This document shows, piece by piece, positions 4,311-29,814 of a DNA stretch of 64,000 nucleotides. This DNA comes from Macrolepiota albuminosa. Lineage: Eukaryota; Basidiomycota; Agaricomycetes; Agaricales; Agaricaceae. The DNA lies in contig JAMWFC010000116.1 of NCBI GenBank assembly GCA_027475525.1, positions 2,107,826-2,171,825 on the forward strand, in the 5' to 3' direction. Made by a program: the position numbers and the translations under genes. The notes under the pieces were generated by a model. The model was given only the letters and a program-made list of their open reading frames with translations. It was not told the origin of the DNA and did not search any database. Numbering within the stretch: the stretch's first letter is position 1; every line of letters begins with the position of its first letter.

Positions 4311-4491
4311 ACCTAGAATGAGATAATAACACAAAGAATTGCTTAGCAGATCTATGTAAGCACAATCATTAAGCTGTAGTTGCAAGATGCTAAAAAGTCA
4401 GAGAAAAAAAGAGAGAAAGCTAAGACAGAGTCTCCTTGTTGACAAGGTCAACTAAAAGGAAATTTGTAATGTAGAATGACCAAAATAGTGG

Positions 4492-5964: not shown

Positions 5965-6080
5965 TGATAGGCTTCTACTCGGACTGAGCGCATCAAGGGA
6001 CATTATAGGCCGACCAACACTTGACACACTAGAGACTCTAGCGACCAGCCTTGGGTATAGAGCAGCCCTAGCGCGGGCGC
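5965..6080 (+). mobile_element. Solo LTR of family B, left part
   Basis: It begins tgataggcttctactcgg, the same start as the two LTRs of element B. It is interrupted by element A1 at 6080 and continues at 17303-18233. The flanking duplication ACGG is at 5961-5964 and 18234-18237. Confidence 0.88.
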
Positions 6081-7028
6081 TGATAGGACCCTATACAGGT
6101 TAGGCGCATCAACGGCAGGCTCGGCACCGGCTCCAGAAACCTTGCCGCACTCGTTCCGAACTTAGCGCACGCGTTCTACCTATTTTAAGCCATTTCTGAC
6201 GGCCGCGCACGGCAAGAAGCAGATCCAATCAGTGATAGCGCCGATCGGCAGACAGAATGACAACTGACAGATGGCATCAGTCACTGACGACAGCGCTTAG
6301 CGAGAAGCTTGATGATCTATCAAAAACTGATGGACAGCTTGGCGTTTGACCTTGGCGTCTGACACCGCTTAGCGTCTCGATTTGGCGCCTGACATCGCTT
6401 AGGTGCTCTGACGGACAGAAGGGTGATGGAGTGATGGTTTAGCTTCGCGATCTGTCGCCTGGCGTCGCTAAGGCTCTTGAATGGACGGTAGGGATCTGAA
6501 ACCGTTGGAGCTACCCCTTTGAAATTTTCCAGTTTACCGCACTCTGGCGTCATTAGCCACTGGCGACGGCGAACTCATTGTAGTATAAAAGTACTTACCG
6601 ACTTGTACATAGAAAAAACAGACGAATAGACCAGAGTTTCCCCCTTTACTTCAGTCTCCCTTACGGTCAAGAGCTCATTTACGCTACGGTCGGCAACGTC
6701 AAAACTCATCGGCAGTTGCAGACGCTCGCCAACACTCGACATACTCGCGCCTTGCAACTACGGCAGGCATTATCGACGCTTAGACTTCGCTAAGCATATC
6801 GTGCTCTTGCCGCTCACATTGCCGTGTTCACTTACCGCATTTCCTTAGGCGCTTTACCTTAGCGCTTGACACTTGCCGACCTCGTTACCGACTTTACCCT
6901 TTTTCACAGACGCGTTCTCTGGGACCTGCCCGGGACTCCTCACATTACTTTTAGCGCGCCCAACGCACACTCTTGGTACGGTAACACAATCGTTACATTT
7001 GTTACTGACCAAACCTTGGGCGCCATCA
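6081..7028 (+). repeat. 5' LTR of A1
   Basis: It runs from tgataggaccct to gggcgccatca (TG..CA ends) and matches 16355-17302 throughout the parts compared. Confidence 0.95.
6584..6590 (+). promoter_or_regulatory. TATA box of the A1 5' LTR
   Basis: The sequence tagtataaaagta sits about midway in the LTR and is kept in the A2 LTR and the 3' LTR (16858). It is the likely core promoter for the genomic RNA. Confidence 0.6.
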
Positions 7029-7031
7029 AAT

Positions 7032-7049
7032 TGGAGCCCACCGCGAGGG
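7032..7049 (+). other. Primer-binding site of A1
   Basis: TGGAGCCCACCGCGAGGG lies 3 bp after the 5' LTR. The same 18 bases follow the 5' LTRs of A2 (18507) and B (21735). It should pair with the 3' end of a tRNA whose acceptor stem begins GCCCACC. That tRNA was not found in this window. Confidence 0.75.
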
Positions 7050-7411
7050 ATCTCTAGGGCAGAATTCCGCCAGAAACCCGTCTCCAGCGTAGGCGCCGCC
7101 TGCTAGACCAGTCGGCAGAAGGCATAGCCCCTTCCCACCCATCAACCCCACAACCACCTGGTGCCTTACCGGGTCTCTCTCTAGCCCAGGAACTACAGAA
7201 CGCCACTGTAGACGCATTTCCTGATCTTTTCCCGCATTCCCTCGATTATAGCGCCGACGACCCCTTAGCGTCGCCCTTTGCCTTACCACAATCAGTCACT
7301 CCCATCACTCCTTTAACACCGCTTTCTCAATTCGCCATTTCTCTTACCCCGTCGCCAATCTCTAGAACCCCTTCCCCACTACCGCTAACCGAACTCGCCA
7401 ACACAGTCGCT

Positions 7412-9724
7412 ATGGAACAACAAGTTCAGCGCATGCCGCCACGCAACCACTTCTCGGCACCGAAATGGGACGAGTCCAAGCCACGGGAGCTCTCCCAGTA
7501 TTTTAAGGAGTTGGAGTATCTATTCAGAGATTGTAACATTACCGACCATACGCAGATGAAGGAGTATGCGGCAAGATACGTATCGTATGACACGGCAGAG
7601 ACGTGGACAGGTTTGACCGAGTTTGCCGCCTTTGTTCCTGCCGCCCCACCAGCTCCAGCCCAAGGCGCTTCGTATGAGGACTGGAAGACGGCAGTAATCC
7701 AGCTGTACCCTGGCGCCGAGGAGGCTACCCGATACACGGTAAACGAGCTCCAAAAACTAGTTCAGGAATCTTTCGACAGTGGCACTTCGTCCCTTGGCGC
7801 ATTCTCTACATATTACCGCGAATTCCAGAAAATCGCTAGGTGGCTTCTGCAGAACGGCAAGCTCTATATTAACGAGGAGCGTCGCCTATTTCAGCAAGGC
7901 ATCCCGACTTCATTGTGGACTCGTATTGCTCGTCGCCTAGAGATAGTTCACCAGGCTCATCACTCAGACGAGCCCTATAACGTTGCCGACGTCTTTGAAG
8001 CCGGTAAATGGGTTCTCAAGGGAACGGACACTGGCGTTGGGCTGCAGCGCGCTAGGACGAGCCCACCACCTGAGCGAACTAACGGTATCATTCCCATCCC
8101 GCCTCCTGTTGCCGACTTCGTTAAGAAGGAGGAACTCAACGCTGCTATTACCGCCGCCGTCGCTTCCGCTATGACGCGTATTGAAACTATGATTACCACC
8201 AACCTGACTGCTAACCGACCCGCTAACGTACCCGCACCTGGCCCTTGCCACTTCTGTGGGGAAATTGGCCACACCATGACGAGAGGACGCTGCGCGACTT
8301 TGGAGAATTATATTCGGCAAGGGAAAATTCGACGGGCTATCGACGGCAAGATAGTTCTCACCACTGGCGCCATCATTCCCAACTACCCAGACAAGAAGTC
8401 CTTCCAGGAGCGAGTTGATGAATGGCATAGGCGCAACCCAGGACAAATCGTTACCGGCACGCTATCTGGCAACGCCAACCCCGACCCAGAACAGGCGACT
8501 CAACAGCAGATGATTCACGAGGTTTTACATTTCGACAGCGTTGGCGACCATCCTACATTCTCGCGAGAAGAACGTATCGCCAAGCTCCAACAGGAGTTGG
8601 ATTCGCTTAAGAATCAGGTCTTTGATGGGGTTGAAGTTAAGCAGCCCAAACAACCTCTTAAAGGATACAAGCCGATGCCTCCCGCTAGCAAGTTACCGAC
8701 ACCTGCTCCTGCCGCACCTCCTGCCACTGCCCCTGCTCCTGCTTCAGAACCATCGTCGTCCGCTACCGCTCCCGAACCGCCTTTGCCGCCTCTCCATCCC
8801 TATTCAGGGATTCCCGACCGTTATCACGCTCCCGCACAACGAAACTTTGCCGCTCCCGAGAAACGTCCTGAGGGTGGCTACCGACCTACCGCGCCAATTT
8901 TCGACATTGAAAAATCGAATCACGTCTTTAACCGCATCATGAAAACCAATGTTACCTTATCTGTAGAAGAACTTTGTAGTATTGCTCCCGACGTCCGCAA
9001 CCAGGTCAAGACGGCAGTCACTCCCCGACGACCCTTGGCGACAGCCGTTGCCGAGGTTGATGAACTCGACGATGCGCTTCCTGGTTTCTCTGTTACCGTC
9101 AACTCGCTGGACGCTGAAGATTCTCTTGCCGACCCCATCGCTAACGCCACTTCTGTGGACCCAGTAGAGACCTACCTTAGGTCTGTAGACCATGGAGAGG
9201 ACCCCGCAATTCTTACCGTCGCTCAAGAATCGCACGCTATCCGCTCGGTCGCGCTAACCGTAGACAATAAACACGAGGTAGAAGCAATCGTGGATAGCGG
9301 GTCTCAGATTATTTCTATGGCAGCAGAAGTCGCTAACGATCTAGGCCTCATTTACGACCCTACGGTTATACTAAATATGCAGAGTGCTAACGGCACAGTA
9401 GACCGATCCCTAGGCCTCGCCAAGAATGTGCCGTGCACTCTTGGCGACATTACGTTCTATCTTCAGATACACATTTTACGCTCACCAGCTTACGACCTAC
9501 TACTTGGCAGACCCTTCGACGTCTTGGCGCGATCAGTCGTCAAGACAGTTACCGACGAGGAAACGACCCTCACAATTAGCGACCCCAATTCCGGAATCCG
9601 ACAAACGGTGCCAACGTTCCCTAGGGGACAACAAAAAGGCGCCCGCGCTAAGCCCCCGGAGTTTACCGACCAGCACGCCAACGAGCCTCCCCACAGGTGT
9701 TTTCACAGACCATCGAGGAGGTGA
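7412..9724 (+). CDS. gag: A1 gag with aspartic protease
   Basis: This 770-residue protein forms the virus-like particle that packages the element's RNA. An N-terminal helical capsid region (about residues 15-215) is followed by a zinc knuckle with C279, C282, H287 and C294. The knuckle spacing is C-x2-C-x4-H-x6-C, two residues longer at the end than the usual CCHC. A Pro/Ala/Ser-rich linker follows. Near residues 620-705 is a retropepsin-like protease with the DSG active-site triad at D628 and a downstream LLLGRPF segment. The ATG at 7412 is chosen because A2 and B gag begin in the same way, although the frame is open further upstream without an ATG. Pol lies in another frame and overlaps the end. 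An identical arrangement is kept in A2. Confidence 0.92.
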   Translation: MEQQVQRMPPRNHFSAPKWDESKPRELSQYFKELEYLFRDCNITDHTQMKEYAARYVSYDTAETWTGLTEFAAFVPAAPPAPAQGASYEDWKTAVIQLYPGAEEATRYTVNELQKLVQESFDSGTSSLGAFSTYYREFQKIARWLLQNGKLYINEERRLFQQGIPTSLWTRIARRLEIVHQAHHSDEPYNVADVFEAGKWVLKGTDTGVGLQRARTSPPPERTNGIIPIPPPVADFVKKEELNAAITAAVASAMTRIETMITTNLTANRPANVPAPGPCHFCGEIGHTMTRGRCATLENYIRQGKIRRAIDGKIVLTTGAIIPNYPDKKSFQERVDEWHRRNPGQIVTGTLSGNANPDPEQATQQQMIHEVLHFDSVGDHPTFSREERIAKLQQELDSLKNQVFDGVEVKQPKQPLKGYKPMPPASKLPTPAPAAPPATAPAPASEPSSSATAPEPPLPPLHPYSGIPDRYHAPAQRNFAAPEKRPEGGYRPTAPIFDIEKSNHVFNRIMKTNVTLSVEELCSIAPDVRNQVKTAVTPRRPLATAVAEVDELDDALPGFSVTVNSLDAEDSLADPIANATSVDPVETYLRSVDHGEDPAILTVAQESHAIRSVALTVDNKHEVEAIVDSGSQIISMAAEVANDLGLIYDPTVILNMQSANGTVDRSLGLAKNVPCTLGDITFYLQIHILRSPAYDLLLGRPFDVLARSVVKTVTDEETTLTISDPNSGIRQTVPTFPRGQQKGARAKPPEFTDQHANEPPHRCFHRPSRR

Positions 9725-12700
9725 TTGGCGACGATCACGGAGATGTAGCGCTAACGCTGGAATATGACCATTCAACTGGTCTTGTAACTGTTATGTCTAC
9801 TGCTTTTCTTGACCAAGACGTTTTAACTACTTTACCCACTATCGACGCAGAGCCTTCCCAGAAAAACCAAAACATTACCGACTCCTCTCTTGCCTACTTG
9901 TACCTTACCGCTTCCGAATCTTTTCAAAATATTGCGTCTACCGATACTTATCTCACTACCCTTCCCGGGGCCTCAGCTCCTGCCGTTCTCGGACTTGCCG
10001 CTCCTCAGGCTACAGTTCCCCTTTCCACATTTGTGTATAACCAAGCTAACGCTCCCAAAAGGAAAGGGGTACAAGTTAAAAAGAAATATAAGCCAGTTGC
10101 GCTTAAAACAAAACCCATCGCTACGCACTCTCCCGAGACGTTTAGAATCGAGCGCCAGATCATTGGCGACCCTCTTGCCGACATGCCAACTTTATCGCCG
10201 AATCCGCCACCCTTTCAGCCCACAGGACGTTTTACCACGGAGCGCCAGCAGCAGTTCGCCAAGGAGCACGACACAGGATTTTTGACCAAAGATGAGTTGA
10301 ACGTCCTTACCGATCTTGTCGCTAAGCAAGACAAAGCCTTCGCTTGGGAGGACTCAGAACGCGGCAGCCTACGTACAGACTTCTTCCCGCCTGTGGTGAT
10401 CCCGACCATCCCTCACGTGCCATGGACTGAGCACAATCGACCGTTACCGCCGGGAATCGAAGCCGAGGTCTGCCAAATCATTAGGACCAAGATACAGGCT
10501 GGCGTCTACGAGCCCTCAAATAGTTCTTACCGCTCCCGTTGGTTCTGCGTCCTCAAAAAGAACGGCAATCTACGCATAGTCCACAGTCTTGAACCACTGA
10601 ATAGAGTCACCATACGACACTCTGGCGTACCGCCTTTCCCTGATCACGTTGCCGAGTCCTTTGCCGGGCGCATTTGTGGCGCCACCCTTGATCTCTACGT
10701 TGGCTACGATGAACGCTTAATACACCCCTCTTCCCGGGATCTCACTACGTTTCAAACTCCGTTTGGCGCACTGCGCCTAGTCACCTTACCGATGGGCTGG
10801 ACAAACTCAGTCCCCATATTCCATGACGACATCACATTCATCCTCCAACCCGAGATACCGCATAACGTCCTAAGCTTTATTGATGACGTTGGCGTCAAAG
10901 GCCCCAAAGACTGGCGACTCGTAAACGGCTTACCGGCGACCCATCCCGAAAACTCCAACATTCGCTTAGCGCTATGGGAATTTTTCTTGCTGCTCAATCG
11001 AGTTCTCCAACGTATGAAGTATAGCGGTGGTACTTTTAGCAGCCACAAACTCCTCCTATGCGCGCCAAGGTTCAAAATACTCGGTCACATCTGCACTCCC
11101 GACGGTCGTGTTCCCGACGAGTCTCGCTTAGCACTCCTGGAGCGATGGGGTCCTTGCCGCGACTTATCTGAAGTTCGCGCCTTTCTTGGTACCGTTGGCG
11201 TTCTCAGGATCTTCGTCAAAAACTTTGCCCATCGCGCACATGCTCTTAACCGACTCACCCGCGCTAACGAGCCCTTCGAATTTGGGCCAGACCAGGTTAC
11301 CGCACAACGAGACTTAGTAAAAGCCCTACAAGACGCCAAGCCCCTAGTTCCAATCGACTATACTTCTGCCGACCCTGTTATCTTGGCGGTGGACACCTCG
11401 TACATTGCCGTTGGCTACTTCTTGTGCCAATGCCTTAGCGACAATCGGAAACAGCGACGCTACAACCGCTTTGGGTCTATTACGCTAAACGATCGAGAAT
11501 CTCGCTACAGTCAGCCTAAGCTAGAGCTCTATGGGCTTTTCAAAACCTTCCGGTCGCTAAAGATGTATTTGATTGGCGTGCGCAACCTTATTGTTGAAGT
11601 CGACGCTAGGTACATCAAAGGCATGCTGCAGAATCCCGACATCCAGCCATCCGCTAGCATGAACCGGTGGGTAGTCGCTATCCTCATGTTTCACTTTGAA
11701 CTGGTACACGTCAAGAGCTCTTTCCACGGACCAGATGGACTCTCTAGGCGACCACGGCAGCTTGGCGACCCGGCAGTGGATCCACAGGCTGATAGCGATT
11801 TCGAGGATTGGATCGACCGTTTACATGGTTTCGTGCACCTTATACAACAGCCAATACCCCTACTACGACGGCAACAGCCTACCAGCATCCTTCTACATCC
11901 CATTATCCCTTACCGCCCCGAGACCTTTAGCGCACCCCTCACATTCTACACGGCAAGCATCCTTGGACAAGACTTGCCTCCAGTAAAAGTCGTACAGGAA
12001 CCCCAGTCGCTAAGAGAAGACAGCAGAAACCTGACCTACGATGCCGTCCCCCGATCCGCCAAGGCAAAGGCGGAAGATAGTCGTCTGTTAGTAGTCGAGC
12101 AATGGATACAAGACCTTAAGCGACCCCCAGACCTTACCGACGAACAATACGCTACCTTTATCCGATATGCTACCCACTTCTTCTTTACCGACAACCGACT
12201 TTGGCGACAAAATCGAGATGGCGCTCACAAGTTGATCATCAAGCCAGATGGTCGCTTACGAGTCTTGCGCGCTATGCATGACGAGCTAGGACATAGAGGT
12301 CTGTACGCTACCCGAGCTTCTCTGTTAGAACGATTCTGGTGGCCACACGCTAGTGCCGACATCGCCTGGTACATCAGGACTTGCCACCTCTGCCAAATCC
12401 AACAGACACGCCAAGTGCTCATACCGCCAACCGTTGCAACGCCAGCTCCCCTCTTCAGCAAAATCTACGTCGATACCATGCACATGCCCAAATCTGGTCG
12501 CTATAAGTACATCATCCAAGGTCGTTGCTCGCTAATCCACTGGCCTGAGTTTCGCATGCTTCAAAGAGAAAATACCGAGGCGGTCGCCAAGTGGCTGTTT
12601 GAGGACGTCATCTGCCGTTGGGGAGCGCTAAGAGAAATCGTCACGGATAACGGTGCGCCCATCATCAAAGCGCTAACATACCTCGCCAAGAAATACAACA

Positions 12701-13446
12701 TTCACCACATTCGAGTATCTGGCTACAACAAGCGCGCCAATGGCCTGGTAGAGAGACCACACTTTGACGTTCGGCAAGCACTCTTCAAGGCAGTCGATGG
12801 CGACGAATCTCGTTGGAGCGAAGCGACCTATTCAGTGTTCTGGTCAGAAAGGGTTACTATTCGTAAGCGCATGGGTTGCTCTCCCTATTACGCGGCTACT
12901 GGCACCCATCCGTTACTCCCTGCCGACATTATAGAAGCGACCTATCTTCAGCCAGCACCCAACAGTATCTTAGCGACTACCGACCTTATCGCCAGACGAG
13001 CCATTGATCTCCAGCGAAGGAAAGAAGATTTGGAGCGACTTCACGAGGTAGTCTTTAGCGCCCGTCGCCAAGCAGCCCTACGATTCGAAACCGAGCATAG
13101 CGCCACTATCAAAGATTACAACTTCCCGAGAGGAGCGCTAGTGCTTATGCGCAACTCCAAAATTGAAACCTCATACAACAAGAAAATGCGCCCGCGCTAT
13201 CTTGGACCTTTGGTAGTTATCTCCCGTAACCGTGGAGGCGCTTACGTGCTCTGTGAACTAGATGGTTCAGTGCTACATCGACCTGTTGCCGCCTTTCGTC
13301 TATTGCCGTATCTCGCCAGAGAACACATTGACTTGCCGCTTGAAGCGCTAGATATCGACACCGCCAAGTTAAGAGAACTTGAGGAAACCGAACTATTGGA
13401 CGATGATGACTTGCCGACTTTAGTTGAAGAAGAAGAAAACGATTAG
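9652..13446 (+). CDS. pol: A1 pol: reverse transcriptase, RNase H, integrase
   Basis: Residues here are counted from 9697. The RT has LDLYVGYDE as the first catalytic-aspartate region and an FIDDV motif at D396-D397 (the YxDD equivalent). RNase H begins around D566 (LAVDTS). The integrase has a zinc-binding H861-x4-H866-x29-C896-x2-C899 and a catalytic triad D926, D984, E1019. A GPY/F-like module (RPRYLGPL..) and an acidic tail follow; I saw no chromodomain. The frame is open only from 9652 and is -1 relative to gag, with no ATG near its start. Expression as a Gag-Pol fusion by ribosomal frameshifting between 9652 and 9724 is therefore likely, though no textbook slippery heptamer is obvious. 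There are no stops or frameshifts. Confidence 0.93.
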   Translation, partial: APGVYRPARQRASPQVFSQTIEEVIGDDHGDVALTLEYDHSTGLVTVMSTAFLDQDVLTTLPTIDAEPSQKNQNITDSSLAYLYLTASESFQNIASTDTYLTTLPGASAPAVLGLAAPQATVPLSTFVYNQANAPKRKGVQVKKKYKPVALKTKPIATHSPETFRIERQIIGDPLADMPTLSPNPPPFQPTGRFTTERQQQFAKEHDTGFLTKDELNVLTDLVAKQDKAFAWEDSERGSLRTDFFPPVVIPTIPHVPWTEHNRPLPPGIEAEVCQIIRTKIQAGVYEPSNSSYRSRWFCVLKKNGNLRIVHSLEPLNRVTIRHSGVPPFPDHVAESFAGRICGATLDLYVGYDERLIHPSSRDLTTFQTPFGALRLVTLPMGWTNSVPIFHDDITFILQPEIPHNVLSFIDDVGVKGPKDWRLVNGLPATHPENSNIRLALWEFFLLLNRVLQRMKYSGGTFSSHKLLLCAPRFKILGHICTPDGRVPDESRLALLERWGPCRDLSEVRAFLGTVGVLRIFVKNFAHRAHALNRLTRANEPFEFGPDQVTAQRDLVKALQDAKPLVPIDYTSADPVILAVDTSYIAVGYFLCQCLSDNRKQRRYNRFGSITLNDRESRYSQPKLELYGLFKTFRSLKMYLIGVRNLIVEVDARYIKGMLQNPDIQPSASMNRWVVAILMFHFELVHVKSSFHGPDGLSRRPRQLGDPAVDPQADSDFEDWIDRLHGFVHLIQQPIPLLRRQQPTSILLHPIIPYRPETFSAPLTFYTASILGQDLPPVKVVQEPQSLREDSRNLTYDAVPRSAKAKAEDSRLLVVEQWIQDLKRPPDLTDEQYATFIRYATHFFFTDNRLWRQNRDGAHKLIIKPDGRLRVLRAMHDELGHRGLYATRASLLERFWWPHASADIAWYIRTCHLCQIQQTRQVLIPPTVATPAPLFSKIYVDTMHMPKSGRYKYIIQGRCSLIHWPEFRMLQRENTEAVAKWLFEDVICRWGALREIVTDNGAPIIKALTYLAKKYNIHHIRVSGYNKRANGLVERPHFDVRQALFKAVDGDESRWSEATYSVFWSERVTIRKRMGCSPYYAATGTHPLLPADIIEATYLQPAPNSILATTDLIARRAIDLQRRKEDLERLHEVVFSARRQAALRFETEHSATIKDYNFPRGALVLMRNSKIETSYNKKMRPRYLGPLVVISRNRGGAYVLCELDGSVLHRPVAAFRLLPYLAREHIDLPLEALDIDTAKLRELEETELLDDDDLPTLVEEEEND

Positions 13447-13869
13447 AAAAGAATATTATTGATAAGCTCCTTTTTCTATTACTTACTTTACTTATCTTTC
13501 TTGCCGTTACTTATTATACTATATTCAACAGACATTTCTTTACATAGTCAAGTCGCAGCGCTAGCGTATCGCCAACGCTTAGCGCCTTGCGCAACTCTCG
13601 CCAAGGGTTTTTCGCTATGATGATTTACTGAGCGTTTCCCTTTTCCTCAAAACTTGTCTAAGTCCCTCACCTACTACTCCTCTTGCTAATACCTACCTCA
13701 GAATACTTACCGCTTGCTTTCTCTTTGCTATACTTTCCTTGCTCTCTGCGGCTGCGCTAACTCAAATTACGGGACTTGTCCTTCCACTCGGCAAGAAGGC
13801 GGCAAGAAATATATTTACGAGTACAAAACAAAAACTAAATACACGACGGCCTATCTACCCTAAGGTCCG
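13447..13869. other. Spacer between convergent pol and antisense gene
   Basis: It is noncoding. It contains a block (about 13606-13644, including gatgatttactgagcgtttc) that is nearly the same in A2 (about 35868-35902) and in the diverged element B (27121-27160). It lies between two genes transcribed towards each other, so a shared 3'-end or termination signal is a plausible role, but this is inference. Confidence 0.55.
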
Positions 13870-16185
13870 TCAGTCTTCACGATCGGAAAGCGGCAAGGAG
13901 TCGTCGAATGGCAGAAGGTCGCCAACCTGGACCTGATTGAGGACTTGCCACTCTAGCGCCTCGTTGCAGTCGGCTTGGTATTCCTCCAGGGTCTCCATGC
14001 TACGGGTCAAGTTGGAGTACCTGAGTCGCGAAGCCATGATCTGTTGACGAGCGCGTTCGCGCTCGCGACCCAAAACCGCACGCATGCTTGCCGCACGAAC
14101 CCCCAGCCGCTCTATAACCTGAGGCGGGTAAAGGGCCACCACGGGATACACCAAGTCCTCCCCCAGCCACTCGTAAGAGTCGCCAGTGACTCGTGGCTGA
14201 GGCTGGGGGGTCCACGACGAGGGCCCACTCGAGCTCGTCCAGAGCTGTGTCGCCAAGTCGCCTTCACTTACCCAGGGGGCGGCAGGCTCCACCGTCGGCA
14301 ACTCCTGGGACTCGCCAGGACCGTCCCGCAAAGTCTCCTCCAACTCCCCCTCAGCATCCTCATTGCCGCCCTCTTCCTCCTCGCGGCTTGGCGACCCTTC
14401 CCTTTTCTCCTCCTCCCCGGCCAACTCCTGTGCGCCAGCGGGCTCCCCCATTACCACGTCACCCTCATCTCCTGGGGCGCCAGCAGTCGAAACATCGTGT
14501 GGCGCGTCTTCAGGCAAAGAGAGAGGGGACAGTAGGCGGCTGGGGCCAGCCTCACCGCTAACGGGAGGAAGACGGCTGGCGGCAAGAGCTTCTCCAAGCT
14601 CCCTCATCTCCGTGTCCTCAGCAATTGGAGAGGGGGAGGGCGACTCGATACGTACGCGCTTGGCCTTACCCTTGCCCTTGCTTGGGGAGGAGGCCTTGCG
14701 CTTTTCTTGGCGCTCGCCAGCGCCGCGCTGTCCGACCGATTCCGATTCATCTCCTTGGCGCGTCGGCAGCGCCAAGGAGGACTTGCTGATCTTCGCCGCT
14801 CTCCCAGCGGCAACCTCCCTACGTTCCCCCTCGACAAACTCCCTAGCCCGCTTGACCAAAACCGCCCGGGAAAAGGTCTTCTCGACAAAGGCATCAGGCG
14901 CCCCGCCACGCTCACGACTCTTGGCGCCGTCGATTGTGCAAGCACGCTTGAGAGTGCCGCAGCGGTAACAGGGTTGGGCGCCAGTGGGGAACCAGCAACT
15001 TTCTGGGTCGTTATCGGCCCAACATTTGTCACACTACTTTGCTTGAGAACAAAAAATCATACGAAAAGGCTAAGACAACTTACCGCTCCACGCGAATCTT
15101 TGAACTCCTGGCGCGTCGCCAGGGAAACCGTGCGCTTGTTCTTCATCTCGGGAATCTCCACTCCTCCCTCGATGCCCTCGTCCATCACTACATCTTCCCG
15201 GCGCGGCAAGAGCAGACCCTTCAACTCCTTGTCGTCGAAAGTAGTCTGACTAGGGAGCTGGGAGAGAGTCAGTAGAAGGTCGGCAAAGTGTCACGACGGC
15301 GTACCTCGTATTGAGGACCCTTCCCCTTGCGAGACTAGCGACAGTTACCACCGGTAAGAAGAAGCGCCAACGACAGCAGACTTACCTTTTTCTTCAAAGC
15401 CTTTCCAGGCTTTGAAGGCGAACCCTGTGTGCCTGCCGGCAGTGTGGGGCTCTGAACACTGCCGGCGCGAGACCCCTTGCTGGAACCCTCGGCAACGGAC
15501 TCCTTCTTCTGCTCCTTGGCAAGCTCTGCCCTCGCCACCGCCAAGGAGTGCGCGGCAGCGGCAGCGGCAGCCTCCTCCTGCTCTTGCTCGATCTGCAATC
15601 GAGCAAGAGGCTCCAGTACCTCTTGCTTGCTACGAGGGGATAGTTCAGTCCATAGCTAAGGAAGGAAAGGTCAGGAGATACTCACTCGGTTGCCGATGCG
15701 CTTACGGTCATCGGCAACGCGCCAGAAAGGATGTCCTCCAGCTCATCTTCGATGGTGGGGACAGGGGGAGGCATGCGCTTACGGTCATCGGCAACGCGCC
15801 AGAAAGGATGTCCTCCAGCTCATCTTCGATGGTGGGGACAGGGGGAGGCGCCTAGAGAGCAATCAGCTTAGCGACATGCCAGGCAAAAACAACAACTTAC
15901 AAAGCGGGAGAAGGGCGCTAACCACTCAGCACCACGATTGTCGACATACCGTGCGCGGCACCACTCCCGCACCTCGATCTCGCGGTCCCACCCAACGCCA
16001 AGGACTCTCACCTCATACCACCTCTCCAGCAACTTCATCACGCCAACCACCAAGTTTTGAGACGCCTCGGCGCCAACGCCCTCGATATGCCGAATGAAAC
16101 GGTTTGCCTTGGCGATGTAGGCGTATGCGGCTTCTTGAGCAGCTTGAGATGGGACGGGGGGCGGAGTTGGAATACGGAAGGACAT
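13870..16185 (-). CDS. Antisense spliced gene of A1, Zn2Cys6-like protein
   Basis: Six exons on the minus strand: 16185-15901, 15851-15783, 15655-15386, 15334-15305, 15257-15084, 15033-13870. They join in frame to a 663-residue protein. All five introns have GT-AG ends and phase 0. Four are 47-51 nt, and the second is 127 nt but 50 nt once the 77-bp assembly repeat is collapsed. Exon 1 gives a helical N-terminus with a VREWC..Y...GAEWLAPF motif. Exon 3 is an Ala/Glu/Lys-rich coiled-coil-like stretch. Exon 6 opens with a six-cysteine cluster (C-x2-C-x8-C-x8-C-x2-C-x6-C) near the fungal Zn2Cys6 pattern, then a basic and Pro/Glu-rich region and a conserved C-terminus (ALEW..GDLLP). A TATA-like site lies about 70 nt upstream near 16255. 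A nuclear, DNA-binding or regulatory role is inference; no known function is recognised. Confidence 0.75.
15696..15849. repeat. Exact 77-bp tandem duplication
   Basis: 15696-15772 is repeated exactly at 15773-15849. It falls across exon 2 and intron 2 of the antisense gene. It is one of thirteen duplications of the same length and is probably an assembly join. Confidence 0.95.
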
Positions 16186-16345
16186 ATTTTTATTGTTGAG
16201 CGCCAGAAAAAGATGGGGAGAAGAAACGAAGTCCAAATTCACGCGCCAGGACTATAAACAAAATTTCAAGAACGCACAGACCACCTGTCACAAAAGCGGT
16301 AACGGTAGCCTTATTTGGTGACTGAGGACAGTCAATTTTTCAGTT

Positions 16346-16354
16346 GGGGGGAGA
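16346..16354 (+). other. Polypurine tract of A1
   Basis: GGGGGGAGA directly precedes the 3' LTR, after a T-rich stretch (tcaatttttcag). It is the plus-strand primer site. The same sequence precedes the 3' LTRs of B (29952-29960) and A2 (38614-38622). A small palindrome, gactgaggacagtc, just upstream is also shared. Confidence 0.85.
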
Positions 16355-17302
16355 TGATAGGACCCTATACAGGTTAGGCGCATCAACGGCAGGCTCGGCA
16401 CCGGCTCCAGAAACCTTGCCGCACTCGTTCCGAACTTAGCGCACGCGTTCTACCTATTTTAAGCCATTTCTGACGGCCGCGCACGGCAAGAAGCAGATCC
16501 AATCAGTGATAGCGCCGATCGGCAGACAGAATGACAACTGACAGATGGCATCAGTCACTGACGACAGCGCTTAGCGAGAAGCTTGATGATCTATCAAAAA
16601 CTGATGGACAGCTTGGCGTTTGACCTTGGCGTCTGACACCGCTTAGCGTCTCGATTTGGCGCCTGACATCGCTTAGGTGCTCTGACGGACAGAAGGGTGA
16701 TGGAGTGATGGTTTAGCTTCGCGATCTGTCGCCTGGCGTCGCTAAGGCTCTTGAATGGACGGTAGGGATCTGAAACCGTTGGAGCTACCCCTTTGAAATT
16801 TTCCAGTTTACCGCACTCTGGCGTCATTAGCCACTGGCGACGGCGAACTCATTGTAGTATAAAAGTACTTACCGACTTGTACATAGAAAAAACAGACGAA
16901 TAGACCAGAGTTTCCCCCTTTACTTCAGTCTCCCTTACGGTCAAGAGCTCATTTACGCTACGGTCGGCAACGTCAAAACTCATCGGCAGTTGCAGACGCT
17001 CGCCAACACTCGACATACTCGCGCCTTGCAACTACGGCAGGCATTATCGACGCTTAGACTTCGCTAAGCATATCGTGCTCTTGCCGCTCACATTGCCGTG
17101 TTCACTTACCGCATTTCCTTAGGCGCTTTACCTTAGCGCTTGACACTTGCCGACCTCGTTACCGACTTTACCCTTTTTCACAGACGCGTTCTCTGGGACC
17201 TGCCCGGGACTCCTCACATTACTTTTAGCGCGCCCAACGCACACTCTTGGTACGGTAACACAATCGTTACATTTGTTACTGACCAAACCTTGGGCGCCAT
17301 CA
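16355..17302 (+). repeat. 3' LTR of A1
   Basis: 948 bp, matching the 5' LTR. It is followed by GCGC, the repeat of the last four bases before 6081. Confidence 0.95.
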
Positions 17303-18233
17303 GCGCTCTATGGCAAGACTTATCCATTCATCTCAATCACCAGTATCAGCCCCTCAGTGCCCTCCACTCAGTTACTTTGAAGACCAAGAAGGCCCAGAAC
17401 TCATAGCGCTAGCACAACGGCGGGAGGTGACTCTGACCAAACCCCGATCAGTACTGAAAGGAGTTAGCAACTGGCGCTGTCAATCACCGAGGCACCTCAA
17501 TCAGAAGTCTAAAGGAATCAATGACGACGAGACAGGATACACGCAGACCCAACATTTAAATCTATCAAAAGATGGTACAATGTTTAGCGCCGGAATTAGC
17601 ACTCACGGCATCTGTCGAGAATTCCCCGATCATACTCCGGGATGGCATGGCCAATTAAATTACATCAAAAAGTGAGCAAACTCGTACCACTTCTAAGTAG
17701 TTTTAGAGTCGCCGTTGGTCGCCGTCACCCATGTGCTGCAGGTCGCCGTTGACAGGTGGCCGTTAGCTACAGTCACGAAGAGAGGCGCTAATTAGTAGCG
17801 CCGTCAATGGACTTATTTTGGAAATACCGTAGCGCATAGTATAAAAACTAGCTACTTGCCATGTATATAACAACAAATCGTAACCTCTTGAGCACCCCGT
17901 TACACTTAGCATTCAAATCGTGCTAGCATTGCCTAACTTTGTCACCAAGCTCGGTGCTAGCTTTGTCTATCTCATCTTCGTCGTTTACAGTGCCACCTAC
18001 GGGCACGCTATGCTGCGCTATTCGTCTTATTTGCTATAACTTCTCCTAAACTACGACGCTTACCACTTGCTAGGTAGCACTCAAAGCGCTATCATCTAGC
18101 GCATCGCCCTATCACCTCTGCTTGAGCACACCGGGACCCTGCCAGGACTCCTCACAAACCCGTACACCAGGCGCTGGAGACGGCGTTGTACTGCATATAT
18201 GTCCAGCGCACCCAACCACAGTTGGCATCATCA
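17303..18233 (+). mobile_element. Solo LTR of family B, right part
   Basis: It continues the LTR begun at 5965 and aligns with 20632-21731 and 30078-31004. A TATA box (tataaaaac) is near 17839. It ends ttggcatcatca, followed by the ACGG target repeat. It has no internal coding region. Confidence 0.85.
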
Positions 18234-18503
18234 ACGGCAGGCATTTACAATGCTTAGACTTCGCTAAGCTTACCGTGCTCTTGCCGCTCACGTTGCCGTG
18301 TTACTTACCGCTTCTTTCATAGGCGCTTTATCTTAGCGCTTTACACTTGCCAACTTTCTTACTGACTTTTCCCTATTTTCACAGGTGCGTTCTCTGGGAC
18401 CTGCCTGGGACTCCTCACATCACTTATAGCGCGCCCAACGCAAGCAATTGGTATGGTAACATTATAACTATATTTGTTACTGACCAAACTTTGGGCGTCA
18501 TCA
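18234..18503 (+). repeat. 5' LTR of A2, second part
   Basis: It is the remainder of the LTR broken at 5964 and ends ttgggcgtcatca. The shared primer-binding site follows at 18507-18524. Confidence 0.86.
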
Positions 18504-18883
18504 AATTGGAGCCCACCGCGAGGGATCTCTAGGGCAGAATTCCACCAGAAACCTGTCTCCAGCATAGGCGCCGCCTACTAGAACAGTCAGCAGAAGGCAT
18601 AGCTCCTTCCCACCCATCAACTCCACAACCACCTGGTGCCTTACTGGGTCTCTCTCTTGCACAGGAACTACAGAACACCACTGTAGACGAATTTCCTGAT
18701 CTCTTCCCGCGTTCTCTCGAGTATAGCGCCGACGACTCCTTAGCGTCGCCCTTTGCCATACTGCAACCAGTCACCCCCATTACTCCATTAACGCCTCTTT
18801 CTCAACTCATTTCCCTTACCCCATCGCCAACCTCTAGAACTCCTTCTCCACAACCGCTAACCGAACTCAGTACCACCGTCGCC

Positions 18884-20511
18884 ATGGAACAACAAGTTCA
18901 GCGCATGCCGCCACGCAACCACTTCTCGGCACCAAAATGGGACGAGTCCAAGCCACGGGAGCTCTCCCAGTATTTCAAGGAATTAGAGTATTTATTCAGG
19001 GATTGTGGCATTACCGACCACACGCAGATGAAAGAGTACGCGGCAAGATACGTATCATATGACATGGCAGAGACGTGGACAGGCCTCACCGAGTTTGCTG
19101 CCTTTGTTCCTGCCGCCCCACCCGTTCCAGTCCAAGGCGCTTTGTATGAAGGCTGGAAGACGGCAGTGATTCAGTTGTACCCTGGCGCTGAAGAAGCTAC
19201 CCGATACTCGGTAAATGAGTTGCAGAAACTAGTACAGGAATCATTCAACAGCGGCACATCGTCTCTTAGCGCATTCTCCACATATTACCGCAAATTCCAG
19301 AAGATCGCTAGGTGGTTGGTACAAAACGGCAAGCTCTATATTAACAAGGAGCGTCGCCTGTTCCAACAAGGCATCCCGACTTTGCTTTGGACTCGTATTG
19401 CTCGTCGCCTAGAGATAGTTCATCAGGCCCATCATCCAGACGAGCCCTATAACGTTGCCGACGTCTTTGAAGCCGGTAAATGGGTTCTCAAGGGAACGGA
19501 CACTGGCGTTGGTATACCACGCGCTAGGACGAGCCCACCCTCTGAGCGAACTAATGGTATCATTCCCATCCCGCCTCCTGTTGCCGACTTTGTTAAGAAA
19601 GAGGATCTCAACGCTGCCGTTACCGCTGCTGTCGCTTCCGCCATGACTCGTATCGAAACTATGATTATCACCAATCTCGCTAACCGACCCGCTAATGTAC
19701 CCCCGTCTGGCCCTTGCCACTTCTGTGGGGAAATTGGCCATACTATGACTAGAGGACGCTGCGTAACTTTAGAAAACTACATTCGGCAAGGAAGGATTCG
19801 GCGGGCTATCGATGGCAAGATAGTCCTCACCACTGGCGCCACCATCCCCAACTACCCAGACAAGAAGTCCTTCCAGGAACGAGTTGATGAATGGCATAGG
19901 CGCAACCCAAGACAAATCGTCACCGGCACACTTTCTGGCAACGCCAACCCTGACCCTGAACAGGCGACCCAACAGCAAATGATCCACGAGGTCTTACACT
20001 TCGATAGCGTTGGCGACCATCCTACTTTCTCATGGGAAGAACGTATCACCAAGCTCCAACAGGAGTTGGATTTGCTTAAAAATCAGGTCTTTGATGGGGT
20101 TGAAGTTAAGCAGCCTAAACAACCTCTTAAAGGATACAAGCCAATGCCTCCCGCTAGCAAGTTACCAACTTCTACTCCTGCCGCAACCCCAGCTACCACT
20201 CCAGAACCCTCATCGACCACCGCCGCTCCTGAACCGCCTTTGCCGCCTTTACATCCCTACTCAGGGATTCCCGACCATTATCATGCTCCTGCACAACGAA
20301 ACTTTGCCGCTCCCGAGAAGCGTCCTGAAGGTGGTTACCAACCTACCGCGCCAATTTTTGACATAGAGAAATCAAACCATGTTTTTAACCGCATCATGAA
20401 AACCGCCGTCACCTTGTCAGTAGAAGAACTTTGCAGTATTGCTCCCAACGTTCGCAACCAAGTCAAGACGGCAGTTACTCCTCGACGACCCTTGGCGACA
20501 ACTGTTGCCGA
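18884..20511 (+). pseudogene. gag: A2 gag, 5' part (split by element B)
   Basis: About 543 codons closely matching A1 gag from its ATG through the capsid and the zinc knuckle (C-x2-C-x4-H-x6-C) to the sequence just before the protease. It is cut at 20511 by the insertion of element B. The frame resumes at 31005 after the CCGA target duplication (20508-20511 and 31005-31008). The first part is open, so the split rather than point decay is what disables it. Confidence 0.9.
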
Positions 20512-20843
20512 TGATAGGCTTCTACTCGGACTGAGCGCATCAAGGGACATTATAGGCCGACCAACACTTGACACACTAGAGACTCTAGCGACCAGCATTG
20601 GGTATAGAGCAGCCCTAGCGTGGGCGCTCTATGGCAAGACTTATCCATTCATCTCAATCACCAGTATCAGCCCCTCAGCGCCCTCCACTCAGTTACTTTG
20701 AAGACCAAGAAGGCCCAGAACTCATAGCGCTAGCACAACGGCGGGAGGTGACTCTGACCAAACCCCGATCAGTACTGAAAGGAGTTAGCAATTGGCGCTG
20801 TCAATCACCGAGGCACCTCAATCAGAAGTCTAAAAGAATCAAT

Positions 20844-20997
20844 GACGACGAGACAGGATACATGCAGACCCGACATTTAAATCTATCAAAAGATGGTACA
20901 ATGTTTAGCGCCGGAATTAGGACGACGAGACAGGATACATGCAGACCCGACATTTAAATCTATCAAAAGATGGTACAATGTTTAGCGCCGGAATTAG
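20844..20997. repeat. Exact 77-bp tandem duplication in LTR B
   Basis: 20844-20920 is repeated at 20921-20997. It is single copy in the 3' LTR (about 30292) and in the solo LTR (about 17522). Confidence 0.95.
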
Positions 20998-22122: not shown

Positions 22123-23982
22123 ATGGAGCAGGCAAACACACCATGTATGCCGCCAAGAAACCACTTCTCGTCGCCAAAATGGGACAAGACGAAACCTCGC
22201 GAGCTAACACAGTATTTCCAAGAATTGGAATATTTATTACGCGACTGCCGAGTCACCGACAACACACAAATGAAAGAATACGCCGCCAGATATGTTTCCT
22301 ACAATACCGTGGAATCCTGGACAGGACTGGATGAGTTTCAAGGATTAACATGAGATGCGGTGCCAAGGTTGTTTACCTACGAGGAATGGAAAAAGGCAAT
22401 CATTAAACTGTATCCAGGTGCTGAAGAATCCACGTGCTATACCGTCCTTGAAATCCAGAAACTGGTACAGGATACCTTTGCAACAGGCATTTATACGCTA
22501 GGCACGCTATCTACTTATTATCGAGATTTCCAGCGAATTGCAAGATGGCTAGTACAGAACGGCAAACTCTACAGGAACGAGGAGCGGCGCTTGTTTCAAC
22601 AAGGCATTCCAACATCACTATGGACCCGTATAGCTCGTCGCTTAGAAATTCTTAAGTCCGACCACCACCCTGAGGAACCCTACGATATAGAAGACGTTTT
22701 TGAAGCAGGTAAATGGATACTGAAAGGCACGGATACTGGCATCCCCTTCCAGCGACCCTCTAGTACTGATAACGGAGGAAAGGCGCCACCTGTTGTGGCG
22801 CCAGCACCTAGCGCGACTAAAAATCAGGGAGGTTTTGTCAAGAAGGAGGATCTGGAAAACACAGTCAACATGGCCGTCGCAAACATTATGAGCAAATTGG
22901 AAACGTTAATCTTGACTAGCCTTAATGCGCCACGAGGTAATATGCAATCCGGCCCTTGTCACTTCTGTGGTGAGGCAGGACATACGATGACTCGCGGACG
23001 CTGCGCTATCCTCGAACAATATCTACGCCAAGGAAGAGCGTGCCGAGGCGCCGACGGGAAAATAGTCCTACCCTCCGGCGCTAACATCCCTCTATATCCT
23101 GAGCACCGAACCTTCCAGGGACGAATTGATGAATGGCACCGACGTAACCCTGGGAACTTAGCGACGGGCAATCTCAATAGTACGGCCACAACGGAGGCAG
23201 AGACAACTCCACAACAGGCGCTAATCCATGAAGTACTCCAGCTTAACGCTGTTAGTGAGCGACCGACGTTGTTACGAGAGGAGAGGATCGAGACATTGGA
23301 AAGGGAGCTAAAGTCGCTAAAAAATCAGGTTTTCAATGGTGTTGAGATTAAAAAGAGCAAGCAACCATTGAAAGATTATAGACCCTCAGGCGCTACGTCA
23401 GATCCAGCACCAGCAAAGCCTTCGAATCCCAGCATCAACGATGACATGCCTGACATGGCCAAAGTATCAGCTAGCATGGAACCGCCACTACACCCGTATT
23501 CAGGACTTGCCGGTAACTACGCTCCGCCTGTCAATCGAAACTATCAGCTAGCATGGAACCGCCACTACACCCGTATTCAGGACTTGCCGGTAACTACGCT
23601 CCGCCTGTCAATCGAAACTTTGAGGCGCCAGACAAGCCAGCAGGAGGCTACCGACCAACGGCACCAATCTATGACATAGAGAAATCTAAGCAAGTATTCG
23701 ATCGTATTATGAAAAGTCAAGTCACGATGTCGGTAGGGGAGCTATGCAGTGTGGCGTCAGATGTCAGGAATCAGATGCGTACAGCGGTTACCCCACGACA
23801 AAATGTAGCTAACAATGTAACGGCGGTGGACGAATGCGACGACGCACTACCTGGATTCGCATACATAACAGAGACAGTAGCGTCAGAAATCAAAGAAGAG
23901 GCCGCGCCACCCAAAGAAGCTACGTCCATTGACCCGGTTGAAACCTACCTTAAGTCGCTAAGATCTAGCGACGATCCCGCCN
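22123..23982 (+). pseudogene. gag: B gag (and start of the protease region), disrupted
   Basis: It begins at the ATG equivalent to that of A1 gag. The capsid region and a zinc knuckle (C-x2-C-x4-H-x6-C, near 22956) are preserved. One in-frame TGA at 22351-22353, in acatgagat, interrupts it. The reading frame then shifts at an exact 77-bp tandem duplication (23465-23618), and collapsing that repeat restores one frame to the N gap. The real defect is therefore probably a single nonsense change; the sequence stops at the gap before the protease. Confidence 0.85.
23465..23618. repeat. Exact 77-bp tandem duplication in B gag
   Basis: 23465-23541 is repeated at 23542-23618. It shifts the gag frame, and removing one copy repairs it. 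Confidence 0.95.
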
Positions 23983-27296: not shown

Positions 27297-29814
27297 CTAC
27301 GGATCATACTCGGGAAGGGCGGGATCACCCAAAGGAAGCAAGTCCCCGTCCTGGATCCCATTGCTCGTCTGCCACTCAAGCGCAGCTGTAATATCGTCAT
27401 GGAGCTCGAGCAAGAGGCGCTCACGGCGAGCTAAGGTGGAAACACGAGGACACAGGTTGGCAAGTTTGCGACCAACGACTTCGGTCGCATCCTCGATATG
27501 GTGAAGTTGCTGGCAAAGGTCGGCAGAAGGACGGAGAGGAGTAACGGGATAGGAGAACTCATCCCTGAGCCAAGGAAAGGCGTCGCCAGAAACTCACATG
27601 GCTGGAGGGGGCGTCCAAAAGGGATCGAACTTATGGGAGATTAGAAAAGGGGAGAAAAGGGGAACGAACAAAGACGGACGTACCCGGACAGTTACAGGTG
27701 CACGGGGTGTCCACTCATGGCGCTCGTTGCTGGGGGACATAGCTCTGGCAGAAGAAAGATGGATGCCGTAGGGAGGCAAGTATCTCCAGCGGCGACGACG
27801 CTCACCTTCCGGCACCAGGGTTCCTTCGGACTCCGGCGCCGCAGAAGTCTCGCGGCTACTAGGAAAAGAAGAGGAGCTGTGGGGAGGAGTAAGGGATGGA
27901 GTAATAGGGAGAGCAACAGGAGTGTCGCTAGCCGCAACCGACTTGGGGGCAGGGGTAGCGCCAGCGTCAGACATAACGACATCTTCGGCAGCAGGGATAG
28001 CCACTACGGCGGGAACAGGAGTGGGGGACCTATCAGGCAAGAAGTTAGCACGCGAAAAAAAAGAAGTTAGAAAAAATGCGTACTGGTTACCACTGGGGCC
28101 ACTCTGACGAGGGTTAGCGGCGATAGGGGGAGTAAGGCGAAGCAGGAGAGCGCGTACCGCCAACAGCGCATTGGCATCAACAACGGGCTCAGCTTCATCA
28201 TCATCCTCTCCCTCGGCATCCCTCTCAGTGCCCTCCCCCTCATCCATAGAAGACTCGGTCGAAGACAAAACCACAGGCGTAGCAGGCGCTAGCTCGCGGT
28301 GCTTACCAGGGCTCTTGCCAGGAGACGCAACAACGGGCTTACGTTTCGACAGAATGGGACAACGGGGAGAGCGAGCAAAAGGTGCTGCCACGGTGATACC
28401 ATCCTGGGTAGTCGGCAGCGCCAGGCTGGCTGCGCTGATAACTGTGGGTTGGTGAGTAGCCGCCAGATCACGTTGCTGCAGCACGAAGTCCCGGGCGTTA
28501 CGACCCAACACCGCGCGCTCATAGTTCCTTTGCATAATGGCGTCCCTACCACGTTCACGAGTACAAATTCCGTTGAAGGTGCAACCTCGTTTCAACGCAT
28601 CGCACCGATAGCAAGGCAGAGAGGCGGTAGGAAACCAGCAGCCCTCAGGATCGTTCTCAGACCAACACTTGTCACACTAAGAAAGAAATCAGTGACAGCA
28701 TGAACCTACTAATGGGCAAACCAGTGCTTACCACGCCAATCTTTGCCCTAAACGCGTGACGCTCCAAGGGCGCAATGGTAACCTTCTTCTTGCCGCCCAG
28801 TACTTGGACACCAGCCGGGACGCCGGTATCAATGACGGTAGTATCACAGCGAAGACGCAAAAGGTTGCGAAGCTCCGCATCGGTGAACATGGTCTGGTTA
28901 GGCGCCTATTGACATTAACATTTAGGCGCTAAAGTCTAGCGACAACAAGCAAAGCACTTACAACATACAAAGGGGGAACACAAGCAGGGAGATTGATCTG
29001 GAAGGGGAGAAGTCAGAAAAATGGAGTAAGGAAGATAGGGAAGGAACGCACGGTACGTTTAGGAGAACTAGCACGAGCAGGGGGTGCTCATTCAATAACA
29101 ATGGCGAAATTACGCGGAGGACCATGGGAAGTTGGGCACGTCAGGCCAGGTCGTGGCTCGCTACGAGAAATGGCAATACATTTGATGGCCGAATGGGGAG
29201 GGGCAGTGCAAACGGAAGAAGCAGCGCTTGGGGCGGGGCGAATGGAAGAAGCAGCGCTATGAAAAGGGCTGCCAAGAATGGAAGGAGGCGGAACAGAAGT
29301 CGAAGAAGGAGGGGCGGTAGGGACAGAAGGGACAGTAGAGGCCGAGGGGGCAGTAGAAAGACTGGCGACGGTGGGAGACATGGCAACCGACTGCTCAAAG
29401 GATTAACAGTGTAAAAAGGGGAGAAGAAAAGGAAGGACTTACCTCGCTGACCTCGGTACTAGCCAACAATGCTTTGATCTTGTCGGATAAGGAGGGAGCC
29501 TAGTATGGGCGCTGAACCTTAGCGCCACAAAGCCAAAATCAAACTTAGAAACTTACGAAAAGGTCTGCGAAAGGGCGCAACCAATTGGCACCTTCGAACT
29601 CACGGTACCAGGCCACACACCACTCGCGAACCTCGTCACCCCGCTCCCAGGAACTGTTAGAGCCGCAGACCACGAGCCAGCGTTGATAAAGTTGCATAAT
29701 GCCAGGGACGGTTTGTGGCGCATTGGCAGGACCAACAGACTTGGCGCGATCAAATAAATAGGAGGCCTTAGCCAGGAAATTGCGGAGAGCAGAGGCATCA
29801 AAAGAAGTGGACAT
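27297..29814 (-). pseudogene. Antisense spliced gene of B, Zn2Cys6-like, orthologous to that of A1
   Basis: Exon 1 (29814-29557) has the same VREWC..Y....GANWLRPF motif as A1. Exon 2 is 29499-29443. Ser/Pro-rich and short exons follow. An exon ending near 28727 matches A1 exon 5. The last exon opens with the same six-cysteine cluster (C-x2-C-x8-C-x8-C-x2-C-x6-C, 28678 downward) and ends at a TAG at 27297 with the conserved ALEW..GDLLP tail. A TGA at about 27595 sits where A1 has CGA (Arg), so this copy looks disabled by a CpG-to-TpG change. Alignment across that stop is collinear, so it is not an intron. Some middle exon borders are uncertain. Confidence 0.65.

Follow-up and report, generated by a model that had tools for sequence, protein, structure and literature searches.

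A predicted spliced antisense gene maintained by selection in Gypsy retrotransposons of Macrolepiota albuminosa, and a dispersed word that its protein may bind

How can a retrotransposon carry a gene with several introns through its life cycle, and what could such a gene do for it? The question is raised by a Gypsy element, A1, in the window analysed here (the whole stretch of 64,000 nucleotides, from a genome of 100 Mb in 129 contigs). The two LTRs of A1 are 99.79% identical (954 aligned bp), and its pol has RNase H followed by integrase, the Ty3/Gypsy order. Between pol, which ends at 13446, and the 3′ LTR, which begins at 16355, a first-pass annotation had proposed a six-exon gene on the strand opposite to gag-pol, which is the position of the antisense genes of plant elements referred to as aORF-3R. 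Coordinates of the features are collected in Table 1.

The proposed gene was borne out where it had been placed. On the minus strand, from 16185 to 13870, six exons and five introns encode a protein of 663 amino acids plus a stop, reading the sequence as assembled. The introns (49, 127, 51, 47 and 50 nt) are all GT-AG and in phase 0. The 127-nt intron measures 50 nt in another copy, L011, which is free of the 77-bp repeat of A1; all five introns of L011 are 47–51 nt, GT-AG and phase 0, and its protein matches that of A1 at 663 of 663 residues. The first-pass annotation had rightly ascribed the long intron to an assembly repeat: the 77-bp unit is single in L011 and other copies, and 13 two-copy arrays of period 77 lie within the window, two of them (at 51908 and 55838) in its 40–64 kb part, outside the A and B elements. 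Because this period recurs window-wide, within A/B elements and beyond them, we consider the repeats to be an assembly artefact, probably joints left by a k=77 assembler, and rule out a biological role. Database proteins of Termitomyces are continuous over the modelled splice points (LWTELSP, PQYE, CDKCW).

Table 1. Features of elements A1, A2 and B in the window
Feature	Position	Strand	Remarks
A1 5′ LTR	6081..7028	+	ends TGATAGG...GCCATCA
Dispersed word CGSYAAG	6081..17302	both	96 sites
A1 gag with protease	7412..9724	+	ORF of 770 aa; Pfam gag-asp_proteas
A1 pol	9697..13446	+	ORF of 1249 aa; Pfam RT_RNaseH, Integrase_H2C2
A1 antisense gene, exon 6	13870..15033	-	387 aa + stop; dN/dS 0.140
Basic stretch KRKASSPSKGKGKAKRVR	14650..14703	-	read from translation
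Six-cysteine cluster C-X2-C-X8-C-X8-C-X2-C-X6-C, residues 277-308	14938..15033	-	start of exon 6
Exon 5	15084..15257	-	dN/dS 0.071
Exon 4	15305..15334	-	30 nt
Exon 3	15386..15655	-	long predicted helix, perhaps coiled coil
77-bp tandem duplication	15696..15849	none	probable assembly artefact
Exon 2	15783..15851	-	dN/dS 0.036
Exon 1	15901..16185	-	ATG at 16185; VREWC..WL.PF motif; dN/dS 0.051
Leader, ATG to 3′ LTR, 169 nt	16186..16354	-	possible antisense promoter region
A1 3′ LTR	16355..17302	+	LTR alignment, ends inspected
Neighbouring A-type piece	18368-20701		
B antisense gene	27297..29814	-	eight exons; two in-frame stops
B exons 1-4	29814-29557, 29499-29443, 29390-29052, 28997-28962	-	
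B exons 5-8	28905-28732, 28676-28084, 28029-27684, 27629-27297	-	
A2 antisense gene	36139-38452	-	one in-frame stop (TAA)

With the gene itself as query, A-type copies were located in at least 107 places of the genome (126 matches in the 107 scored of 1248 candidates) and B-type copies in at least 113 (117 matches in the 113 scored of 1102 candidates). A set of 44 A-family sequences (A1, A2, L009–L038 and L047–L058) was reduced to 43 aligned rows by dropping L010, the same place as A1. Divergence was calculated for the 41 rows covering more than 85% of the exons and, by codon position, for those 776 of their 820 pairs with an overall distance above 0.03; these pairs, like those used for dN/dS, are not independent of one another. 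First, second and third codon positions diverge by 0.059, 0.038 and 0.286 in exon 1 and by 0.101, 0.082 and 0.292 in exon 6. The values for introns 1–5 are 0.28, 0.18, 0.35, 0.29 and 0.37; third positions and introns have similar divergence among the aligned A-family copies. The splice sites are kept: GT donors of introns 1–5 in 40/41, 40/40, 41/41, 41/41 and 43/43 of the copies covering each, AG acceptors in 41/41 for introns 1–4 and 43/43 for intron 5. The ATG is retained in 41/41 copies and the stop codon in 43/43. No in-frame stop was found in 36 of 41 copies, counted on rows reduced to L011 columns, which leaves insertion frameshifts uncounted.

A comparison of dN/dS between copies had been suggested at the first pass, with values well below 1 expected for a gene under selection. 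The median (Nei-Gojobori) is 0.119 (5–95%: 0.065–0.194; 787 of 820 pairs), and 0.014 for the cysteine cluster described below (45 codons, 561 pairs; 5–95%: 0–0.23). The pol C-terminus gives 0.059, and the gene is thus conserved at the protein level like other proteins of the element, as expected of an aORF-3R gene. When nine disjoint recent pairs were pooled, dN/dS of the gene was 0.29 (34 synonymous and 31 non-synonymous changes, the majority contributed by one pair); constraint in young copies looks weaker, though not absent. With dN/dS well below 1, introns diverging freely and splice sites kept, the conservation across families that had been attributed to selection is supported: purifying selection acts on the protein read through the predicted splice junctions.

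Long antisense frames are expected in GC-rich DNA, and sense ORFs of 122–201 aa overlap exon 6, which would suit an open frame that arose by chance across from a sense gene, or an artefact of gene prediction. The other frames of exon 6 argue otherwise. Over 41 copies, the gene frame averages 0.07 stops per copy and the five other frames 4.0–18.7, with 4–9 in the sense frames. dN/dS is 1.4–2.2 in four of the control frames and 0.256 in complementary frame 1, which is probably the shadow of the gene's third positions; this shadow apart, the sense frames show no conservation. Splice sites and intron phases are kept as well. Frame controls and splice-site conservation together rule out a chance frame or overlap with a sense gene, to which we attach virtually no credence.

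The histories of gene and pol do not always agree. Some pairs combine near-identical genes with very different pol (L037 and L038: 2 vs 62 synonymous changes), while L071 and L072 have pol C-termini about 99% identical and exon 6 versions near 58% identical. Such mismatches may reflect recombination or, alternatively, chimeric assembly of repeats.

The same gene had been reported in A2, from 36132 to 38452, and in element B. In A2 it is present, with its span beginning at 36139 and an in-frame TAA. In B, the presence of the gene, its cysteines, exon 1 and tail stood the comparison. The B gene has eight exons and seven introns (52–57 nt), two of them extra relative to A and located in the last part, and the stops in exons 3 and 8 leave the B copy of the window broken. 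Besides exon 1 and the tail, both genes have the cluster in common (59% identity between the B and A segments), and the junctions of introns 1–5 are in phase 0 in each. A codon signal is clear in the B family from exon 5 on (third positions mostly 0.15–0.44, first and second mostly <0.15). The exons upstream of it do not align cleanly, probably because some B loci are without the 5′ part, and dN/dS is given for the A family only.

The spacing of the six cysteines that open the last exon had been read correctly (2-8-8-2-6), and the cluster alignment shows it in each of its 22 A and B sequences. All six cysteines are kept in 43/43 A-family copies; in the database proteins P0005, P0012 and P0025 one or more are lost. 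Cluster identity to L011 is 89–100% in the ten other A lineages compared, and in L071–L073 the cluster is nearly unchanged. It is followed in exon 6 by a conserved segment ending SLALPT, the basic stretch, which we take to be a possible nuclear localisation signal, an acidic variable region, a C-terminal helix and the GDLLP tail. Structure models are poor (pLDDT 48 for the relative P0001 and 50 for the cluster); the model of P0001 places the exon 3 helix at residues 125–188.

Judging from its cysteines, the cluster likely binds zinc. Strict membership of the fungal Zn2Cys6 class, near which it had been placed, could not be upheld. Zn2Cys6 clusters (PF00172) have the spacing C-X2-C-X6-C-X5-12-C-X2-C-X6-8-C, and here the second loop has 8 residues instead of 6. 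PF00172 had no match in the spliced protein, 25 relatives or five cluster pieces, and hhalign of the cluster against five Zn2Cys6 clusters gave a probability of 2.3%, weak evidence of difference as both profiles are small. The spacing and this small-profile result bar the name, and together with the absent Pfam match they rule out membership.

The profile search proposed for the predicted protein matched no known family in Pfam or NCBIfam. Pfam gave no relative for the spliced protein, 25 relatives and five cluster pieces, including the TRP28 (PF04195) and bZIP domains. We rejected weak single-member matches that were inconsistent over members (DUF4674, the best, E 0.026; CENP-B_dimeris, 0.049; Anti-TRAP, 0.066; DUF3716, 0.49). 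NCBIfam had no match for the four proteins tested, and a PDB sequence search found no relative, its two matches at E 1.4 being taken as chance. Viral contigs contained no relative of the protein, and phage records nothing matching exon 6. The 29 protein relatives found all belong to Termitomyces (T32_za158, J132, Mn162, T159_Od127, T112), in full-protein searches that scored the 7993 candidates sharing most words and may miss relatives elsewhere. A region search on the cluster (595 candidates, E up to 10) yielded 16 proteins, only from Termitomyces. These matches suggest that the host is itself probably a Termitomyces or a near relative, and probably a fungus farmed by termites.

K-mer counts in A1 led to the word CG[CG][CT]AAG (CGSYAAG), which ranks first of the two-fold-degenerate heptamers built up from the 400 most frequent 7-mers. 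The 96 sites of both strands (counted over 6075–17302) compare with about 7.5 expected, and 96 of 120 CGNNAAG are of this form in A1 vs 8 of 58 in host DNA at 40–64 kb. Enrichment over order-1 shuffles is found in every part of A1 (LTRs 19–23x, gag 9.8x, pol 11.8x, spacer 16x, gene 10x), in A2 (pol 15x, gene 6.6x) and in the neighbouring A-type piece (4.9x). Host DNA shows 0.7–1.3x. At the two Copia loci that served as controls the word is at chance (2 and 1 sites vs 0.9 and 1.4 expected), as it is in the only other control, 24 kb from the host (8 vs 8.5). Synonymous-codon shuffles (n=500), which preserve protein and codon use, gave far fewer sites than observed in A1 gag (13 vs 2.1), A1 pol (31 vs 3.3), the L011 gene (14 vs 2.8) and A2 pol (13 vs 1.8), none of the 500 reaching the observed number in any of the four; two Copia ORFs and one host ORF had no excess. 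All 15 A-family loci listed carry 19–37 sites per 3.4–4.2 kb, and the far-diverged L071–L073 have 26–30 vs 2.5–2.8 expected. An RNA packaging signal is unlikely, as the strands are about equal in gag and pol (21 and 23 sites), though lopsided in the LTR (3 and 11). Mere CpG survival is unlikely too: A1 has a CpG observed/expected ratio of 1.06, and CGSYAA accounts for 22% of its CpGs vs 2% in host DNA.

The word is maintained between copies, and this extends to synonymous positions in gag and pol. Its retention is 0.45–0.86 vs 0.28–0.61 for permuted words and higher in 9/9 pairs; in some pairs single permuted words do as well (a fraction of up to 0.40 among words with sufficient sites). The fixed bases of a site are conserved at 0.71–1.00 against an overall identity of 0.76–0.90, an excess that is not seen at each position in each pair. 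At the Y position most changes remain within C/T; at the S position C-G exchanges have a share that does not consistently exceed background. Under a neutral simulation, which takes no account of protein constraint, 9 of 10 copies keep more sites than the maximum of 200 simulations. The exception, L058, has 19 sites (simulated mean 15.5, maximum 23), a loss about as neutrality predicts. Copies at 70–80% identity keep their number of sites where the simulation predicts 4–9, and L071–L073, at 70–73% identity, have 22–28 vs 4–5. Of the 25 sites of L072, 13 are shared with L011 and 12 are private to it; turnover accompanies retention, and it is therefore the density of sites that is maintained.

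Element B favours a different, overlapping word, GCGCTA/GGCGCT, which is weaker than that of A and shares with it the core CGCTA. Four B loci, related to each other, have when pooled 47 GCGCTA vs 8.1 and 21 GGCGCTA vs 2.4. Against synonymous shuffles, GCGCTA is raised in B gag (5 vs 0.9; 1/500) and in L062 exon 6 (3 vs 0.3; 0/500) and not significant in exon 6 of the window B copy (2 vs 0.6; 52/500), where GGCGCT is in excess (3 vs 0.5; 4/500). GCGCTA is raised in A1 too (31 vs 7.5). Conversely, CGSYAAG in B reaches 6.1x over order-1 shuffles in the gag region (4 vs 1.0 against synonymous shuffles; 4/500) and 2.0x in the gene, and 1.4–2.9x in element B and in three loci of its family. The 17, 12 and 10 sites of loci L061, L063 and L067 come perhaps from flanking A-type sequence.

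On balance, we lean towards the view that the antisense protein binds the CGSYAAG sites filling its own element and thereby controls the element's expression. The antisense transcript would start in the 3′ LTR or the leader and then be spliced; divergence over the 120 nt preceding the ATG is 0.076 per site vs 0.18–0.37 in introns. The cysteine cluster would bind zinc and contact DNA, possibly with the protein dimerised through a coiled coil. Repeated many times, the word would recruit many protein molecules along the element, and the bound protein would shield it from host silencing or drive its transcription. The introns would persist, the genomic RNA being the opposite strand, as the first-pass annotation had reasoned; the logic of that argument is supported. 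We infer the pairing of protein and word from two gene/word families and three kinds of case: the word is at chance level in the few gene-less controls (Copia, host), is retained where the cluster hardly varies, and differs in B, as the cluster does. The ten A lineages with a near-constant cluster and L071–L073 all carry CGSYAAG. The earlier idea of a regulator of the element thus gains independent support from a family-specific word, for a binding that we infer; we found no evidence for the other role then suggested, in host defence. A counterpoint to DNA binding is that the cluster, as far as sequence comparison reaches, matches no known DNA-binding family.

VANDAL transposons are not retrotransposons. 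They offer a precedent (PMC5735166): VANC21 binds, in vivo and in vitro, a nine-base word dense in its own transposon, and a dense, short, family-specific word goes with an element-encoded protein, related families using different words. Such a word is present in A1, and B has some CGSYAAG too. As described there, VANDAL words are mainly non-coding, commonly repeated in tandem and oriented one way, whereas the A1 word is dispersed, lies in coding sequence too and occurs on both strands; binding is demonstrated for VANC (PMC5735166) and proposed for the A1 protein.

A host protein, such as an exploited transcription factor or chromatin protein, might instead read CGSYAAG, with the antisense protein acting otherwise, for example in nuclear import of the pre-integration complex or in RNA binding. 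Sites on either strand, throughout all parts of the element, suit any reader of double-stranded DNA, and nothing in the sequence ties the cysteine cluster to DNA. A host factor might, however, be expected to have host sites, and the word is only at chance in the host DNA of the window and the two Copia pieces; moreover, the A and B words differ as their proteins differ. We regard a host reader as a minority option that deserves attention. Somewhat less probable still is that the protein represses its own element and so limits transposition, instead of activating it or opposing silencing. HBZ of HTLV-1 is a spliced antisense gene near the 3′ LTR with a C-terminal bZIP domain, and it limits sense transcription of the virus. 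Position and orientation of the A1 gene match those of HBZ, though the A1 gene has five introns and its protein no bZIP match. An antisense promoter has been described inside the HTLV 3′ LTR (PMC7264820). Self-limitation can be favoured at copy numbers as high as those given above, and CGSYAAG is dense in the LTRs too, but repression would call for sites in the LTR promoter rather than in gag, pol and introns. We prefer anti-silencing to self-repression since the word spans the element throughout, its coding regions too, and is specific to the family, as in the VANC case. That the antisense RNA alone matters, through double-stranded or small RNAs, with the protein incidental, seems very improbable. 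PMC7264820 discusses antisense transcripts of LTR elements as possible regulatory RNA; codon-level selection with introns free to diverge speaks against this as the sole function, and the two may coexist. The most likely reading, on our analysis, would remain a DNA-binding self-regulator with an anti-silencing role.

For plants and ascomycetes, PMC7264820 lists genes of unknown function that lie antisense between pol and the 3′ LTR. The plant aORF-3R examples in the passages of PMC7264820 and PMC11963269 are Grande gene23, RIRE2, Retand TRP28 and PvRetro13 ORF2. They resemble the A1 gene in position, orientation, many copies and a proposed nuclear regulatory role, and Grande has an antisense promoter of its own; they differ in having other domains (TRP28, SMC), and the A and B genes have five to seven introns. 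The main texts of both papers contain no word beginning 'intron', and their passages on these genes mention no dispersed target word. Among fungi, Boty/BcGypsy1 of Botrytis cinerea carries brtn (Zhao et al. 2011, as cited in passages of PMC7264820 and PMC8365987), likewise an extra antisense gene of a Gypsy element between pol and the 3′ LTR; its host is an ascomycete, and the likeness is one of description rather than of compared sequences. Searches of full-text literature, to which subscription papers are mostly external, brought up no such gene for basidiomycetes or Termitomyces.

The gene now comes with a concrete, maintained, family-specific candidate target word, which makes its function directly testable by a binding assay. 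A bolder version of the anti-silencing reading is plausible, though we hold it with some doubt: the protein would represent a new cysteine-cluster DNA-binding class, the element would have been rewritten into a landing strip of about 100 sites, synonymous gag and pol codons included, and families would change protein and word together, evading silencing without cross-activation. If the anti-silencing reading is true, these elements would be a retrotransposon counterpart of the plant VANC anti-silencing systems, apparently of independent origin, in which position on the opposite strand lets a multi-intron gene pass through cycles of reverse transcription.

The antisense gene and pol appear, from sequence comparison, to have different histories. 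Three pairs of copies elsewhere in the genome (L037/L038, L051/L055 and L014/L015) carry near-identical antisense genes together with diverged pol; conversely, at the pol places compared with copies L071-L073, pol C-termini are ~99% identical while the antisense genes are strongly diverged. Either exchange of modules or chimeric assembly would account for this mismatch.

L058 is a copy in decay. Relative to L011, the reference copy lacking the 77-bp repeat, its substitutions are predominantly C to T (179 versus 16 and 18), and the number of CGSYAAG sites, a dispersed word enriched in the A family, is reduced. Methylation or RIP-like mutation is perhaps the agent.

Fourteen CGSYAAG sites lie upstream of the Gypsy element A1, at window positions 4001-6000, an interval that contains another A-type LTR copy. 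A1 is bordered on each side by GCGC, possibly a 4-bp target duplication, seen in this one case; the flank overlaps GGCGCT, the word favoured by the diverged element B. Internal tandem repeats, both short (30 and 63 nt), are present in and upstream of the B antisense gene.

Window coordinates of repeats and flanks
Feature	Positions
GCGC flanks of A1	6077-6080, 17303-17306
A-type LTR copy	5500-5799
Short repeats, B gene	29200-29258
Short repeats, upstream	25190-25374
Period-77 array	15696-15849
Period-77 array	20844-20997
Period-77 array	23461-23619
Period-77 array	24087-24240
Period-77 array	25538-25692
Period-77 array	26047-26200
Period-77 array	31159-31314
Period-77 array	32102-32261
Period-77 array	34727-34880
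Period-77 array	35528-35681
Period-77 array	37909-38063
Period-77 array	51908-52062
Period-77 array	55838-55992

The 13 period-77 tandem arrays in the window, of two copies each, are probably k-mer overlap joints of the assembly, and such arrays are common in other loci too. Genes containing them acquire false frameshifts.
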